Made by a program: the position numbers and the translations under genes
Shown: in pieces, positions 2,651 through 64,000 of the stretch
Numbering within the stretch: position 1 is the first letter of the stretch
How the letters are laid out: the number at the start of each line of letters is the position of its first letter
NCBI RefSeq assembly: GCF_900066015.1
Contig: NZ_LN890655.1
Span: forward strand, 868,001-932,000
Length of the DNA stretch: 64,000 nt
Source: Candidatus Promineifilum breve
GTDB taxonomy: Bacteria > Chloroflexota > Anaerolineae > Promineifilales > Promineifilaceae
Reading direction: 5' to 3'
Notes under the pieces: model-generated
What the model was told of the DNA's origin: nothing
Database searches by the model: none
Seen by the model: only the letters and a program-made list of their open reading frames with translations

Positions 2651-3808
2651 CTAAACCAGCCAGCTATAGGCGTAGCCATCATCTTCCATCGCCAGCGCGT
2701 GGCGCGTCAGGCGCAGGGGACGGAAGGTATCGACCATCACCGCCAATTCCTCGGTGCGCGTCTTGCCGATGGAACCCTCGTAGGTGCCGGGGTGCGGGCC
2801 GTGGGGGATGCCGTTGGGGTGGATGGTCAGCGACGCCCGCTCGATGCCCTTGCGCGACATGAAATCCCCCTCGACGTAGTAGAGCACCTCGTCGGAATCG
2901 ACGTTGGAGTGGTTATAGGGCGCGGGTATGGCCTGCGGGTGGTAGTCGAACAGGCGCGGCACGAAGGAGCACAGCACGTAGCCCGGCCCGTCGAACGTCT
3001 GGTGGACGGGCGGCGGCTGGTGGACGCGCCCGGTAATCGGCTCGAAGTCGGCGATGTTGAAGGCGAACGGCCACAGATGCCCGTCCCAACCCACCACGTC
3101 GAGCGGGTGATGGTCGTAGACGAAGCACGTCACCTGATTACGGGCCTTCACGCGCACCTCAAACTCACCCGCCTCATCGTGGGTGATCAGTTCGTCGGGC
3201 GGGCGGATGTCGCGCTCGCAAAAGGGCGAGTTCTCCAGGAATTGGCCGTAGTTGTTGATGTAGTGCTTGGGCGGGGTGACGTGGCCGTAGGACTCGACGA
3301 CGAGCATCCGCTGCTCGCTGTCGGGGTCGGGCAGCAGCCGCCACATGACGCCGGTGGGGATGACCAGGTAGTCGCCGGGGCCATAGCGCAGATGGCCGAA
3401 CTGGCTTTCCAGTACGCCGGTGCCGTCATGGATGAACAGTACGTCGTCGCCGTGGGCGAACTTGTACCAGTAGGTCATCGGCTCGGTCGGCCGGGCCAGG
3501 TAGAGGACGACGTCGTTGTTGCCCATGAGCGGCACGCGGCCGCTGATGGCGTCGCCGCCGGCCGGCAGCGGCGTGGAACGCAGGTGGCGCGGCCGGAGCG
3601 GGCCGCTGTCCTCGTAGACGATTGGCTCCGTGGGCACCAGGCCCAGCCGCCGCACGGCCGTCGGCGGGTAGAGGTGGTAGAGGATCGACTGGATACCGGC
3701 AAAGCCGTGGATGCCCATGACCTCTTCGTGGTGCAATGCGCCATTGGCCTGGCGAAACTGTGTGTGGCGCTTATGTGGGATCTGCCCCAATTTATAGTAA
3801 TAGGTCAT
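2651..3808 (-). CDS. hmgA: Homogentisate 1,2-dioxygenase
   Basis: 385 residues. It opens homogentisate to maleylacetoacetate in tyrosine/phenylalanine catabolism. The start region IPHKRHTQFR and the double cupin core are typical. The iron site appears as a His followed by acidic residues in YNHSNVDSDEVLYYVEG and the HPNGIPHGPHPG loop. It is shorter than the classical 430-445-residue enzymes and matches the short bacterial subgroup. ATG 3808 has a strong GAGGAG 6-8 nt upstream. The GxxExxY element ends only 18 bp before this start, between it and hppD, which encodes the preceding pathway step. Confidence 0.9.
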   Translation of the reverse strand: MTYYYKLGQIPHKRHTQFRQANGALHHEEVMGIHGFAGIQSILYHLYPPTAVRRLGLVPTEPIVYEDSGPLRPRHLRSTPLPAGGDAISGRVPLMGNNDVVLYLARPTEPMTYWYKFAHGDDVLFIHDGTGVLESQFGHLRYGPGDYLVIPTGVMWRLLPDPDSEQRMLVVESYGHVTPPKHYINNYGQFLENSPFCERDIRPPDELITHDEAGEFEVRVKARNQVTCFVYDHHPLDVVGWDGHLWPFAFNIADFEPITGRVHQPPPVHQTFDGPGYVLCSFVPRLFDYHPQAIPAPYNHSNVDSDEVLYYVEGDFMSRKGIERASLTIHPNGIPHGPHPGTYEGSIGKTRTEELAVMVDTFRPLRLTRHALAMEDDGYAYSWLV

Positions 3809-3825: not shown

Positions 3826-3873
3826 AATTAAACACGGATAGGACACGGATAAAACGGATTTAACGGATTGAAT
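3826..3873. repeat. Left inverted arm of the GxxExxY element
   Basis: Array of ACACGGAT-type units beginning AATTAAACACGGAT and ending ACGGATTGAAT. It covers the last five codons of the GxxExxY gene. Confidence 0.9.
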
Positions 3874-4288
3874 TTGGGTCACGAGGGCTATTAGGCTGAA
3901 GCGGACTCAATGAGGTTTTACGATCATTGGTGAGTATCACTCGTTTGAAAGACGTTTGTCGCCCAAAGTTTAACAATAATCCAACCTCGATTGAAGTCGC
4001 CTTCAAATAGTTGGAGAGTTGTGCCAAATGCTCTGGATGAATGCGCTCAGCAGTCTTCAGTTCAACGATGACCTTATCCGCCACCAGCAGATCGGCGTAA
4101 TATTCACCGACAATGACGCCATGAAAGTGTACTTTAATAGGCGCTTGCTGGATAACCTGGAATCCTCGTAGATGCAAAAGATAAGCCAATGCATTCTCGT
4201 AAACTTTTTCCAGGAAGCCTGTTCCCAACGTGTTATGCACGTCGTAGAACGCTCCGATTATCGCCCCTGTAATATCTTCGTGAAGCAT
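3860..4288 (-). CDS. GxxExxY protein (PD-(D/E)XK nuclease-like)
   Basis: 142 residues. The family signature GxxExxY reads GFLEKVYENAL (residues 24-34). The putative nuclease core follows: an acidic residue in GEYYADLLV and E-x-K in VIVELKT (about residue 77), the PD-(D/E)XK arrangement. The family is abundant and often multicopy but has no established function that I know. Its coding DNA is clearly lower in G+C than neighbours by eye. The C-terminal residues (PNSIR) and stop are encoded inside the left inverted arm, so gene and repeat form one unit. It interrupts the hppD-hmgA pair. Confidence 0.88.
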   Translation of the reverse strand: MLHEDITGAIIGAFYDVHNTLGTGFLEKVYENALAYLLHLRGFQVIQQAPIKVHFHGVIVGEYYADLLVADKVIVELKTAERIHPEHLAQLSNYLKATSIEVGLLLNFGRQTSFKRVILTNDRKTSLSPLQPNSPRDPNSIR

Positions 4289-4304
4289 ATCACTCGCTGT
4301 TGGG

Positions 4305-4352
4305 ATTCAATCCGTAAAATCCGTAAAATCCGTGTCCCATCCGTGTTTAATT
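4305..4352. repeat. Right inverted arm of the GxxExxY element
   Basis: Reverse complement of the left arm, reading ATTCAATCCGTAAAATCC onward and ending CCGTGTTTAATT. It ends 3 nt before the hppD stop codon at 4356-4358. Confidence 0.9.
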
Positions 4353-4355
4353 TCT

Positions 4356-5474
4356 TTACAGATTGCCGCGCAAGGCCTGCTCGCGTTCGATCGACTCAAA
4401 GAGCGCCTTAAAGTTGCCCTTGCCGAAGCCGCGCGAGCCGTGGCGCTCGATGATCTCGAAGAAGACCGTCGGCCGATCTTCCACCGGCTTGGTGAAGATT
4501 TGCAAGAGATACCCCTCGTCGTCGCGGTCGACCAGGACGCCCAACTCGGCCAGCACATCCACCGGCTCGTTGATCTTGCCCACCCGGCTTTCCAGTTCCT
4601 GATAGTAGGTTGTCGGCACGCGCAGGAACTCGATGCCGCTATCCCGCAACTGCATCACCGTGCCGATGATGTCGCCCGTCGAGCAGGCGATATGCTGCAC
4701 GCCGGGGCCGTAGTAGTAGTCGAGGTACTCCTGAATCTGTGACTTCTTCTTGCCCTCGGCCGGCTCGTTGATCGGGAACTTGACCTTGCCCGTGCCGTCC
4801 TGCATCACCTTCGACATGAGGGCCGAGTACTCGGTGGAGATGTCCTGATCATCGAAGTGGACAAGCTGGCTGAACCCCATCGTCCGGGCGAAGAACTCCA
4901 CCCAGCGGTTCATGGCCCCTAGCTCGACGTTGCCGACCATGTGGTCGATGGCCGCCAGACCGACGCCCTTGTGCCAGACGCGGCCGTTATCCGCCTCCGG
5001 GCCATAGCCGTTGCGCGCCGTGTAGCCGGGAGCGAACGCGCCGTGGTAGTTGGAGCGGTCGACGAACTTGATGATCGTGTCGCCATAGGCGCGCACGGCC
5101 GAATAGCGCAACACCCCGCACTCGTCGGTTATCTCCGTCGGCGCAATGGCCCCCGACGCGCCGCGGGCCGTCGTCTCGCGATAGGCGGATTCGGCGTCGG
5201 GCACACCGAGGGCGATGACCGCCACGCCGTCACCGTGCAGGTAGGCGTGCCGGGCGATGGGATGATCCGGCCCCAGCGCCGAGGTCAGCACCAGGCGAAT
5301 CTTGCCCTGGGCCATGACGTAGGAGGCTGTCTGCCGGTTGCCCGTCTCCAGCCCGCTATAGGCCGCCTGGGCAAAGCCGAAGCCCGTCCGGTAGAAATGA
5401 GCCGCCTGCTTGGCGTTGCCGGCATAAATCTCCACATGGTCAATCGCTTTAATCGGTAAAAAATCTTCGCTCAT
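4356..5474 (-). CDS. hppD: 4-hydroxyphenylpyruvate dioxygenase
   Basis: 372 residues, the standard length. It converts 4-hydroxyphenylpyruvate to homogentisate with Fe(II) and O2. Two vicinal-oxygen-chelate domains are present; the C-terminal one carries the three iron ligands: His in AAIDHMVGNV (about 183), His in GPGVQHIACST (about 266) and Glu in FFEIIERHG (about 346). The C-terminal GNFKALFESIEREQ helix is also typical. ATG 5474 is preceded by AGAGGTGA. Its product is the substrate of hmgA immediately downstream, with only the GxxExxY element between. An aminotransferase that could supply 4-hydroxyphenylpyruvate lies upstream. Confidence 0.95.
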   Translation of the reverse strand: MSEDFLPIKAIDHVEIYAGNAKQAAHFYRTGFGFAQAAYSGLETGNRQTASYVMAQGKIRLVLTSALGPDHPIARHAYLHGDGVAVIALGVPDAESAYRETTARGASGAIAPTEITDECGVLRYSAVRAYGDTIIKFVDRSNYHGAFAPGYTARNGYGPEADNGRVWHKGVGLAAIDHMVGNVELGAMNRWVEFFARTMGFSQLVHFDDQDISTEYSALMSKVMQDGTGKVKFPINEPAEGKKKSQIQEYLDYYYGPGVQHIACSTGDIIGTVMQLRDSGIEFLRVPTTYYQELESRVGKINEPVDVLAELGVLVDRDDEGYLLQIFTKPVEDRPTVFFEIIERHGSRGFGKGNFKALFESIEREQALRGNL

Positions 5475-5538: not shown

Positions 5539-5830
5539 CCCAGACCCTCTCCCTAACCCTCTCCCAGAGGGAGAGGGGACTAGAACCCTCTTCCCCCAGA
5601 CCCTCTCCCTAACCCTCTCCCAAAGGGAGAGGGGACTAGAACCCTCTTCCCCCAGACCATCTCTCTAACCCTCTCCCAGAGGGAGAGGAGACTAGAACCC
5701 TCTTCCCCCAGACCCTCTCTCTAACCCTCTCCCAGAGGGAGAGGAGACTAGAACCCTCTTCCCCCAGACCCTCTCCCTAACCCTCTCCCAGAGGGAGAGG
5801 GGACTAGAACCCTCTTCCCCCAGACCCTTT
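5539..5830. repeat. Five-copy 56-bp tandem array of hairpin units
   Basis: Units begin at 5539, 5595, 5651, 5707 and 5763, exactly 56 bp apart, with a partial sixth from 5819. Each contains the palindrome CCCTCTCCC-AGA-GGGAGAGGG. Copies differ at a few positions only. The array fills most of the 413-bp gap between the aminotransferase stop and the hppD start; I see no gene in that gap. There are no unique spacers, so it is not CRISPR. Confidence 0.95.
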
Positions 5831-5887
5831 CTCCCCTGCTCCCCTGCTCCCCCGCCCCCCTGCTCCCCTGCTCTGACCTTCCCCCCG

Positions 5888-7111
5888 CTACCCGCCACCC
5901 GCCACTTCCCCGATCACCCGCCCCAACCGCTCGATCCCCGCCTCAATATCGGCCAGGCAGCAATTGGAGAAGTTCAGCCGCATCGTATTGGCCGCGGCCG
6001 TGCCGGGCTGGGCGAAAGCCTGGCCGGGGATGAAGGCCACCCGCTCGCGCTCGATGGCCGTCTCCAGCAGCGCCCCCGCATCGACGTGTTCGGGCAGCGT
6101 GACCCAGATGAACATGCCGGCCCGCGGCGTCGTCCAGAAGACCCCCTCCGGGAAGTGGCGGGTCATGGCCGCCAGCATGGTATCGCGCCGGCAGCGGTAC
6201 TCCTCGTTCAGGCGGGCCAGATGCGCCGGCAAGTGGCCGCCGTCCAGATAGGCCGCCACCGCCCGCTGCGTCAGCGCCGACGACTCCAGATCGCCCGCTT
6301 CCTTGATGACCGTCAGCTTGGGCAGCAGCGCCTCGGGGGCGATGAGCCAGCCCAACCGCAAGGCAGGGGCCATGATCTTGGAGAAGGAGCCGACGTAGAA
6401 CACGTGGGAATCGTTGTGGGCACGCACCGGCGGCAGGCATTGGCCGTCGTAGCTCAGGAAGCCGTAGGGGTCGTCCTCCAGGATGGGCAGATTGTAGGCC
6501 ACGGCGACATCGGCCAGCCGGCGGCGCTTGGCCTGGCTCAGGCTGACGCCCAGCGGGTTGTGGGCGTCGGGGATGATGTAGAGAAAGGCCGGTCGCGCGC
6601 CCCCATCCAGGTAATCGATCACGTCCTCCACCTCGATGCCGGTCGCCAGATCGGTGCTTACCGGCAGCACGCGCGGGCGATAGGGGGCCACGACCTGCCG
6701 GATGCCGGTATAGACGATCTCCTCCAGCAACACCTGACCGCCATCGTCCAGCAACAGGCGGGTCAGCACGTCGAGCGCCTGCTGCGCGCCGGTGGTCAGA
6801 AAGACCTGCTCGGGCGCGCAATCGACGCCGCGCTCGGCCATCAGCCGCACGATGTGGGCCTTGAGCGGCGCGAAGGGCGGGCCGTATTGCAGCGCGCCGC
6901 GGTCGGTGGCTAACACCTGGGCCAGGGCGCGGCTATAGTCGGCCGTGGGAAACAGATCGGGCGCGGGCAGCCCCCCGGCAAATGACAGGATGCCGGGCCG
7001 CGACACGACGGCCAGCATCTGGCGCAGCACCGAGCGCTGCATGGTGTGGGTCCAATCGGCCAGTTCGATCGCCGGCGCGGCCACATTCAGGGCGGGCAAA
7101 GGGGAAACCAT
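5888..7111 (-). CDS. PLP-dependent aminotransferase, class I/II (LysN/ARO8-like)
   Basis: 407 residues. Fold-type I aminotransferase with ILSFAGGLPAPDLFP near the N-terminus (typical of 2-aminoadipate/aromatic transaminases), DDPYGFLSYDG and the PLP lysine in GSFSKIMAPALRLGW (about 235), and the carboxylate-binding Arg in NTMRLNFSN near the end. ATG 7111 has GGAG 11 nt upstream. It lies 8 nt after the Lrp-type regulator and upstream of hppD and hmgA, so transamination of tyrosine or phenylalanine is a sensible guess, though this family also acts on 2-aminoadipate and kynurenine. Confidence 0.85.
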   Translation of the reverse strand: MVSPLPALNVAAPAIELADWTHTMQRSVLRQMLAVVSRPGILSFAGGLPAPDLFPTADYSRALAQVLATDRGALQYGPPFAPLKAHIVRLMAERGVDCAPEQVFLTTGAQQALDVLTRLLLDDGGQVLLEEIVYTGIRQVVAPYRPRVLPVSTDLATGIEVEDVIDYLDGGARPAFLYIIPDAHNPLGVSLSQAKRRRLADVAVAYNLPILEDDPYGFLSYDGQCLPPVRAHNDSHVFYVGSFSKIMAPALRLGWLIAPEALLPKLTVIKEAGDLESSALTQRAVAAYLDGGHLPAHLARLNEEYRCRRDTMLAAMTRHFPEGVFWTTPRAGMFIWVTLPEHVDAGALLETAIERERVAFIPGQAFAQPGTAAANTMRLNFSNCCLADIEAGIERLGRVIGEVAGGG

Positions 7112-22881: not shown

Positions 22882-24417
<1,536 letters not shown>

Positions 24418-24556
24418 TTACGAATTAGGAATTACGAATTACGAATTCAGAGGGTGCTAGGTGCTAGGTGCTAGGGAAGAGGGTGCTTTATGACGAATCA
24501 CGAAGTCAGAGCGCGCTACCCTAGCACCTAGCACCTAGCACCTAGCACCTATCCCC
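24418..24556. repeat. Nested microrepeat arrays with inverted GTGCTAG arms
   Basis: An ATTACGA-type array (24418-24448) is followed by three GTGCTAGG octamers (24453-24477), a 38-nt centre, and the inverted array of CCTAGCAC octamers (24516-24550, about four units). It fills nearly all the 147-bp gap between guaB and rarD. Confidence 0.92.
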
Positions 24557-24564
24557 CTACTCTT

Positions 24565-56264: not shown

Positions 56265-56358
56265 GGACACGGAGTACACCGAGGAGTCACGGAGTGCACG
56301 GAGGAAGAACGACGCTTCCTCTGTGAATCTCTGTGAATTCTCTGTGTCCTCTGTGTAA
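56265..56358. repeat. Inverted arms of CACGGAG / CTCTGTG units
   Basis: Left arm 56265-56306 (units like ACACGGAGT, TCACGGAGT) and right arm 56315-56358 (CTCTGTGAATT, CTCTGTGTC) are reverse complements with mismatches around an 8-nt centre. It resembles the GxxExxY element arms but contains no gene. It fills most of the gap between YtxH and the Nfu_N-like gene. Confidence 0.85.
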
Positions 56359-63632: not shown

Positions 63633-63643
63633 AGTAAGAGAAG

Positions 63644-63793
63644 AGAATCCACAGATTACACAGATTACACAGATTTCACAGATTGATAAGAGGTATTATC
63701 CGCGGATTGGGCAGATTGGGCAGATTTCTTTTTATGCCGAACGCGGGGAGAATTTTTATCTGTGAAATCTGTGTAATCTGTGGATTTCTTATT
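63644..63793. repeat. Gene-less inverted microrepeat locus of CACAGATT units
   Basis: Left arm about 63644-63685 (four CACAGATTA/T units) and right arm about 63750-63793 (TCTGTGAAATCTGTGTAATC and following, three units) are inverted. Between them is a second array of GGGCAGATT units (63698-63729). It fills the 162-bp gap between mutS and the next leftward gene; there is no ORF inside. Confidence 0.92.
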
Positions 63794-63794
63794 C

Positions 63795-64000
63795 TTAAAC
63801 TGAGAGGTTATAGACCTCGTGAAGTGTTCGCTTAACAGCTTCCCAGGTGGGGGCCACGGGCGGCAGGGTCGGCGCGGGCAAGCCCTGATCCTTGAAGCCG
63901 GAGGAAGTCATCAGGCAGACCACCGGGCCATCGAAGCGCAGACCGGCCGCGGCCGCCTGGCGCAAGCCCGCTGCCCCGGCCGCGCCGGAGAATTCGGCCC
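63795..64000 (-). CDS. Threonine synthase-like PLP enzyme, C-terminal end
   Basis: The leftward frame enters from the right edge and stops at TAA (63797-63795). About 67 residues are visible: AEFSGAAGAAGLRQAAAAGL, GPVVCLMTSSGFKDQGLP and the tail WEAVKRTLHEVYNLSV. The S/G-AA-x-GLR helix and VVCLMTSSGFKD strand-loop are typical of the C-terminal part of threonine synthase and related fold-type II PLP enzymes. The catalytic lysine is outside the window. Confidence 0.65.
   Translation of the reverse strand, partial: AEFSGAAGAAGLRQAAAAGLRFDGPVVCLMTSSGFKDQGLPAPTLPPVAPTWEAVKRTLHEVYNLSV

Follow-up and report, generated by a model that had tools for sequence, protein, structure and literature searches.

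A GxxExxY gene lies between inverted microrepeat arms

The DNA analysed here (the window) is a 64-kb stretch (G000:C1:868001-932000) of a 5.03 Mb genome assembled in three contigs. Between hppD and an hmgA-like gene it carries a small gene of the GxxExxY family, bounded by two inverted arms (Table 1). The initial annotation had described these arms, and an inverted-repeat search recovered them as reported: they are 48 nt each, 90% complementary and separated by 431 nt, and the whole window has no longer inverted repeat within 1.5 kb. Arm 1 is composed of four degenerate ACACGGAT units, all pointing inward. GxxExxY is indeed the only gene between the arms, its stop codon (3860-3862) lies inside arm 1, and 3 nt separate the right arm end from the hppD stop codon. 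Two details had to be revised. The distance from the arm to the hmgA start, given as 18 bp, is 17 nt, the start being the ATG at 3806-3808 by homology. The hmgA label stands as to family, but the gene is a distant member, scoring 61 bits against an HmgA equivalog cut-off of 511. The interior had been called A+T-rich; its GC content is 0.46 compared to 0.63-0.65 in the flanking genes, and that of the arms is 0.35-0.38. As a single strand, the GxxExxY unit folds at z = -7.8 relative to shuffled sequences; with this value and a second one of z = -11.1, the stems are very stable.

Table 1. Positions of the genes, arms and gene-less hairpins of the window considered in the text
Feature	Position	Strand	Remarks
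hmgA-like gene, distant homogentisate dioxygenase family	2651..3808	-	flanking host gene
Arm 1 of GxxExxY element (hmgA side)	3826..3873	+	AATTAAACACGGATAGGACACGGATAAAACGGATTTAACGGATTGAAT
GxxExxY gene, 142 aa	3860..4288	-	PD-(D/E)XK fold (predicted); invariant E27, Y30, D66, E76, K78
Arm 2 of GxxExxY element (hppD side)	4305..4352	-	inverted copy of arm 1, 43/48
hppD, 4-hydroxyphenylpyruvate dioxygenase	4356..5474	-	flanking host gene
Gene-less hairpin, CACGGAG/CACAGAG units	56268..56355	.	same type as window arms
Gene-less hairpin, CACAGAT units	63635..63797	.	same type as window arms; absent at site in six congeners

GxxExxY is a predicted nuclease of the PD-(D/E)XK class

The protein matches TIGR04256 (135.6 bits, cut-off 35, E = 9.5e-40) and PF13366 (PDDEXK_3; 139.4 bits, cut-off 22, E = 8.4e-41). 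The motif residues G24, E27 and Y30 and the catalytic residues D66, E76 and K78 are invariant in 78 sequences. An AlphaFold model obtained from the single sequence was discarded (pLDDT 39), and an AlphaFold2 model from the 78-sequence alignment reached a pLDDT of 91.5 and a pTM of 0.83. The best solved structures retrieved with it by Foldseek were lambda-type exonucleases, SSO0001, which we take to be a Cas4 protein, and archaeal Hjc resolvases. VIA-align gave Z = 9.8 for SSO0001 and Z = 7.1 for Hjc. Because Z values near 7 are common background, we limit the claim to the class: from the model, GxxExxY is predicted to be a PD-(D/E)XK nuclease with a resolvase/exonuclease-like fold. The predicted fold and the D-(D/E)-K active site are common to Hjc-type resolvases, lambda-type exonucleases, Cas4 and GxxExxY, whereas at the sequence level a PDB search with the family profile retrieved nothing at E 10. 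PADLOC and PHROGs searches gave weak matches only, Cas4-like (E about 0.003) and similar. The window unit encodes no HUH tyrosine (Y1) nuclease, its matches being PF13366 and TIGR04256 only, and no DDE, HUH or recombinase-type transposase is present in this gene-carrying copy, whose one gene is the PD-(D/E)XK gene.

Arms accompany GxxExxY genes in many phyla

The genome contains two GxxExxY genes (60% identity), both within matched inverted microrepeat arms. Arms were also found at nearly all of 30 GxxExxY genes examined in the same class and, in congeners, at every one of the eight full-length genes identified. The survey was extended to 80 GxxExxY genes from about 17 phyla, 76 of them with usable flanks, and 209 other ORFs from the GxxExxY loci themselves served as control. 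An inverted-repeat score of at least 15 was obtained for 54 of the 76 genes (71%) and for 3% of the control ORFs. When loci from the Chloroflexota class and from the about 17 phyla were pooled, 112 out of 154 carried at least two inward C-R-C-R-R-A-K units on each side. Of the 17 phyla examined, 13 show one and the same unit consensus, CRCRRAK, and the family itself is distributed over many bacterial phyla and also archaea. As a further control we used Uma2, a multicopy PD-(D/E)XK-like family of the same class: none of 27 genes had units on both sides and only one had a high inverted-repeat score. The expectation that most GxxExxY genes have arms, and that these do not occur at random relative to the genes, is thus borne out. 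About 30% of GxxExxY genes are without recognisable arms, most often in Bacteroidota (arms in 7 of 17).

Among the genomes sampled, the best within-genome pair of GxxExxY genes is 78% identical, the copies being diverged and low in number. GxxExxY was found in 0 of 50,697 phage records and in 8 of 72,556 plasmid records; carriage by phages or plasmids is therefore not the main route.

Gene-less hairpins are dispersed in the same genome

A pattern of three successive units gave 574 array matches in the genome, compared to none for the reversed pattern. In 864 kb of it we counted 50 inward unit pairs and no outward ones. The same 864 kb contain 48 hairpins that lack a GxxExxY gene; these usually measure about 50-150 bp and have short loops. 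Their placement is mostly intergenic: 36 of the 48 have less than 20% ORF overlap, as opposed to 5.7% of random positions. Some share their ends with the resident genes. Ends of the gene 1 type, AATTAAACACGGAT(G/A)GGACACGGAT, are also present on gene-less hairpins L017 and L028, and those of the gene 2 type, GGAACGCGGATGACACGGAT, on L014. Two hairpins located 290 kb apart are 99% identical over 102 bp and have unrelated flanks. In the sample, 18 of 48 hairpins are G-ending, the 99%-identical CACAGAG subfamily included, whereas the arms of both resident genes are T-ending; only in a congener did we find a gene whose arms resemble one of the G-ending types (CGCAAAG). This is the weakest point of our interpretation: no gene in the genome under study matches CACAGAG, the subfamily whose copies resemble each other most; gene loss, cross-recognition or another mobiliser may account for this.

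The outer ends of the hairpins read AATTAAACACGG, GAATCCACAG, GGAACGCGG and GCGGACACAG, with no GTAG/CGTC tag at the repeat foot. No convincing direct-repeat excess, as expected of a target-site duplication, was observed at any offset in the 48 hairpins, a 2-nt signal at offset 1 of the ends corresponding to palindromic element sequence. A literature search for the repeat sequences gave no match.

Intergenic hairpins, often close to the 3′ end of a gene, could be ordinary host structures such as terminators, arisen by slippage and flanking a GxxExxY gene by chance. This explanation has next to no chance of being correct in our opinion: the same unit consensus occurs in the 13 phyla mentioned above, Uma2 genes and control ORFs are without arms, 13 of the 48 hairpins lie between divergent genes, and hairpins are missing in congeners, as detailed below.

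The element is present or absent at the same site in relatives

An empty hppD-hmgA site, which the initial annotation had proposed to look for in close relatives, was found in L035 (same genus) and L036, where 16-18 bp separate the two genes. L037, L039 and L040 carry at this junction a GxxExxY gene with different arms, so that gene-carrying relatives have arms too, and the hairpin of L041 has no gene and is built of units of a different type. In L034 (same genus), both arms are present and the gene is reduced to its C-terminal codons (FKRVILTNERK vs FKRVILTNDRK); from its sequence, this junction is best described as an internal-deletion derivative of a gene-carrying unit. The distant HmgA-family gene remains beside hppD in most relatives compared.

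Pairwise identities among the four junction GxxExxY copies are 61-65%, those with the paralogue L002 (gene 2) 60-63% and those for hppD 80-85%. A single ancient insertion inherited vertically is unlikely, since the junction copies are no closer to one another than to L002. Independent, repeated insertion at the junction is favoured by these identities, the deep tree being weakly resolved.

The gene 2 element is also present in G005 and is absent from five of six congeners, namely G002, G003, G004, G006 and G007 (L306, L308, L309, L310 and L312), which have other genes there. In G004 the site is occupied by a Uma2-family gene, and in G003 one arm-like stretch is left, GGAACGCGGGTGAAGCG.

Five gene-less hairpins, including that at 63635-63797, were followed in the same way, and none was present at the orthologous site in relatives (24 comparisons), the gene content of the spacer differing as well in some of them. 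Congeners differ too much in their intergenic DNA for insertion boundaries to be read exactly. The 63635-63797 hairpin matches almost perfectly the arms of a GxxExxY gene of G007. The CACAGAT subfamily has many matches in G005 and G007 and is rare in most other congeners, a distribution that we read as a lineage-specific burst.

Four-helix-bundle genes have arms of their own type

Of 32 genes for four-helix-bundle proteins (TIGR02436), 28 are likewise bounded by inverted microrepeat arms, among them all four in the genome under study (loci L162-L165 and, elsewhere, L196-L224). Their arms are mostly made of heptamer units, very varied and unlike CRCRRAK in sequence, and none of the 32 genes has CRCRRAK arms on both sides. 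From this double dissociation we argue that the two protein families go with separate sets of arrays. Intergenic heptamer arrays have been described before without a mechanism (PMC4679880), and relatives of the four-helix-bundle proteins are known from stem-forming 23S rRNA intervening sequence (IVS) elements (PMC4990558).

Such relatives suggest another possibility, movement at the RNA level, where the transcript would fold by means of its arms like a 23S rRNA IVS, a reverse transcriptase would act in trans and the GxxExxY or four-helix-bundle protein would be accessory. The architecture common to both gene families is in line with it, as are the very stable stems and the failure to find a target duplication. 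The unit is nevertheless without a reverse transcriptase, and a protein that has the fold of a DNA nuclease and retains its D-E-K residues is better suited to processing DNA, which makes the RNA route improbable.

Inverted or direct arrays (GTGGCGA, CTCCCCTG, AATTACG, GGTGCTA) are also seen in the window at 180-237, 1305-1365, 5831-5905 and 24416-24558. GTGGCGA and GCAGGGGA units form the arms of the four-helix-bundle genes L162-L165 elsewhere in the genome. GTGGCGA/GTGGTCA arrays, which are of the four-helix-bundle type, are nested in the loops of CRCRRAK hairpins at C1:992049, 1516629, 1605495 and 1698542 (L268, L294, L298 and L303), as if one element type had inserted into the other. At 5539-5828, the window further contains five tandem 56-bp copies (96% matching), each with an inverted CCCTCTCCC / GGGAGAGGG pair.

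Arrays follow the gene, and unit type follows the protein clade

We compared array matches in 150 genomes of the class. The median is 36 in genomes with a GxxExxY gene versus 1 in those without (Mann-Whitney p ~2.5e-14), and the odds ratio for six or more matches is 16 for gene-carrying genomes versus the rest; these statistics treat genomes as independent, except for the comparison within families, where gene-carrying genomes were higher in 14 of the 17 families having both states. Exceptions exist in both directions, some assemblies being incomplete: at least six matches were obtained in 10 of the 52 genomes where no gene was detected, and fewer than six in 20 of the 98 where one was. Array count also rises with the number of GxxExxY genes (Spearman 0.68).

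This last correlation bears on the possibility that the nuclease is a host-domesticated guard, which would restrain or trim hairpins in defence or maintenance, while other host factors mobilise the elements. The few, diverged gene copies within a genome (best pair 78%), reminiscent of domesticated RAYTs, and the weak similarity to Cas4 profiles (E about 0.003) would be compatible with such a role. Arrays increase, and do not decrease, with gene number, however; the gene mostly resides inside a hairpin, and its presence varies among congeners. A guard is therefore very improbable.

Units and proteins were then compared directly. Across 112 elements, the units tend to be more alike the more identical the proteins are (Mantel r = 0.48, 0 of 2000 permutations), also within genomes (r = 0.43, 6 of 2000). 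The left and right arms of one element agree much better with each other (0.29) than with the arms of other elements in that genome (1.70; 0 of 2000). On the protein tree, a tree of few columns with many open forks, the final base of the unit (T or G) requires 4 changes versus 23.7 in shuffles and the fourth and fifth bases 31 versus 57, and the main split separates nearly all T-type from G-type proteins with support 99/94. Judging from these sequence comparisons, the type of unit goes with the clade of the protein, also among the genes of a single genome. As arms and gene are linked, the match may result from co-inheritance; it establishes stable units, from which we infer recognition.

The match between clade and unit would also be expected if the gene were a homing-type passenger, i.e. 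if hairpins spread by other means and the nuclease gene entered the loops of those it recognises, gene-less hairpins being empty targets. In gene-carrying copies the gene indeed takes the place of the loop in an otherwise identical hairpin, and some genomes are hairpin-rich without a detected gene. We nonetheless consider this scheme unlikely. Gene-free genomes are usually nearly array-free (median 1), congeners have no hairpin at all at the hppD-hmgA junction, and L034 has lost the gene from a gene-carrying unit. Moreover, no other hairpin-moving family was found, the four-helix-bundle genes using other units (0 of 32). The mobile or selfish unit proposed in the initial annotation, perhaps homing-type or REP/RAYT-like, keeps its REP/RAYT-like core, well supported by absence in relatives, gene-less copies and co-distribution. 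The dispersed gene-less copies, the common CRCRRAK unit and the parallel four-helix-bundle system go beyond what that annotation had noticed. Its homing-type variant is not supported: the sites are varied intergenic spacers, congeners are without the whole hairpin, and neither a conserved gene nor a conserved homing site was found as insertion target.

A model for the spread of GxxExxY hairpins

Taken together, the data are best read as a selfish pair of the REPIN/RAYT kind built on an unrelated nuclease, which we regard as probable; the window element would then probably belong, as the member that carries the gene, to a family of small selfish hairpins. It is very likely that arms and nuclease constitute a mobile unit, mobilisation being what we infer. 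Co-distribution and clade-unit matching suggest, with reasonable likelihood, that GxxExxY acts on the arms. That it does so by cutting folded DNA at the hairpin base is a tentative proposal, and a rather doubtful one.

In this model, GxxExxY would recognise the arrays whose units belong to its clade, probably when these are folded into a hairpin or cruciform; the folded form is the likeliest one for nuclease action because the stems are very stable. The enzyme would cut at the base of the arrays, and hairpin DNA would spread to other intergenic sites via host repair or replication, without target-site duplication. We know of no strand-transfer chemistry for a PD-(D/E)XK nuclease alone. Gene-less hairpins would be non-autonomous copies mobilised in trans, some of them arising by internal deletion. 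The GxxExxY gene itself would seldom move and would evolve as a diverged low-copy locus, as do RAYT genes with REPINs. No transposition, excision or cleavage event was seen.

In a broader sense, GxxExxY could be the mobiliser of a new pan-prokaryotic class of hairpin elements, with the four-helix-bundle (S23/Avd-type) proteins representing a parallel heptamer class, a generalisation for which we see the chances as evenly balanced. Such elements would require only a PD-(D/E)XK nuclease and arrays of short units co-evolving with the protein. GxxExxY, a multicopy family that is widespread but has no role assigned to it, would thereby gain a concrete job, and dispersed short-repeat arrays without known mechanism a candidate enzyme. 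If true, mobile DNA is possible around a stand-alone PD-(D/E)XK nuclease, without DDE, HUH or recombinase chemistry, and two abundant orphan gene families would be explained, together with much of the short-repeat filler of environmental bacteria. The protein clades and their matched units (e.g. GAT-type vs GAG-type) would offer a ready-made recognition code.

Comparison with known systems

In the mainly non-subscription literature searched, GxxExxY receives passing mentions only, and no description of its genes in hairpin arms, or of such repeats, was found. The closest system is REPIN/RAYT (PMC3116915), where RAYT genes are diverged and low-copy while REPINs are amplified. Both systems comprise many intergenic gene-less hairpins and a small number of nuclease genes that are diverged, low in copy number and flanked by repeats of the matching type. 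In both, the repeats come in several flavours that correspond to individual protein clades, and no cargo is evident. In the genome studied here, two diverged GxxExxY genes stand against 574 array matches, and dispersed intergenic inward-pair hairpins share ends with both genes. The enzymes differ, an HUH tyrosine nuclease in one case and a PD-(D/E)XK protein in the other, as do the repeats, a single REP palindrome as opposed to arms that are arrays of 8-10 nt CRCRRAK units. Unlike in REPIN/RAYT, the gene is inside the hairpin and the system extends over many phyla, archaea included.

The 23S rRNA IVS with S23 ORF (PMC4990558) likewise consists of one small ORF in an inverted-repeat stem loop and is considered selfish. 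It is however located in 23S rRNA and excised by RNase III, whereas GxxExxY units lie between protein genes, and its S23 four-helix-bundle protein is unrelated to the PD-(D/E)XK protein. MITEs and their parent IS also display terminal inverted repeats on gene-carrying and gene-less copies and internal-deletion derivatives (here L034). GxxExxY elements differ from them in having no DDE or other known transposase, no detected target-site duplication and internally repetitive inverted repeats. The heptamer repeats of Beggiatoaceae, Cyanobacteria and Bacteroidetes (TAACTGA; PMC4679880) are similarly short intergenic units of distant phyla with no mechanism known; they are mostly direct repeats, nearer to the four-helix-bundle-type arrays than to CRCRRAK.

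Since an HUH nuclease, a GTAG tag, a known transposase and a target duplication are all missing, we call the GxxExxY hairpin a categorically new kind of element. Its autonomous/non-autonomous logic is already familiar.
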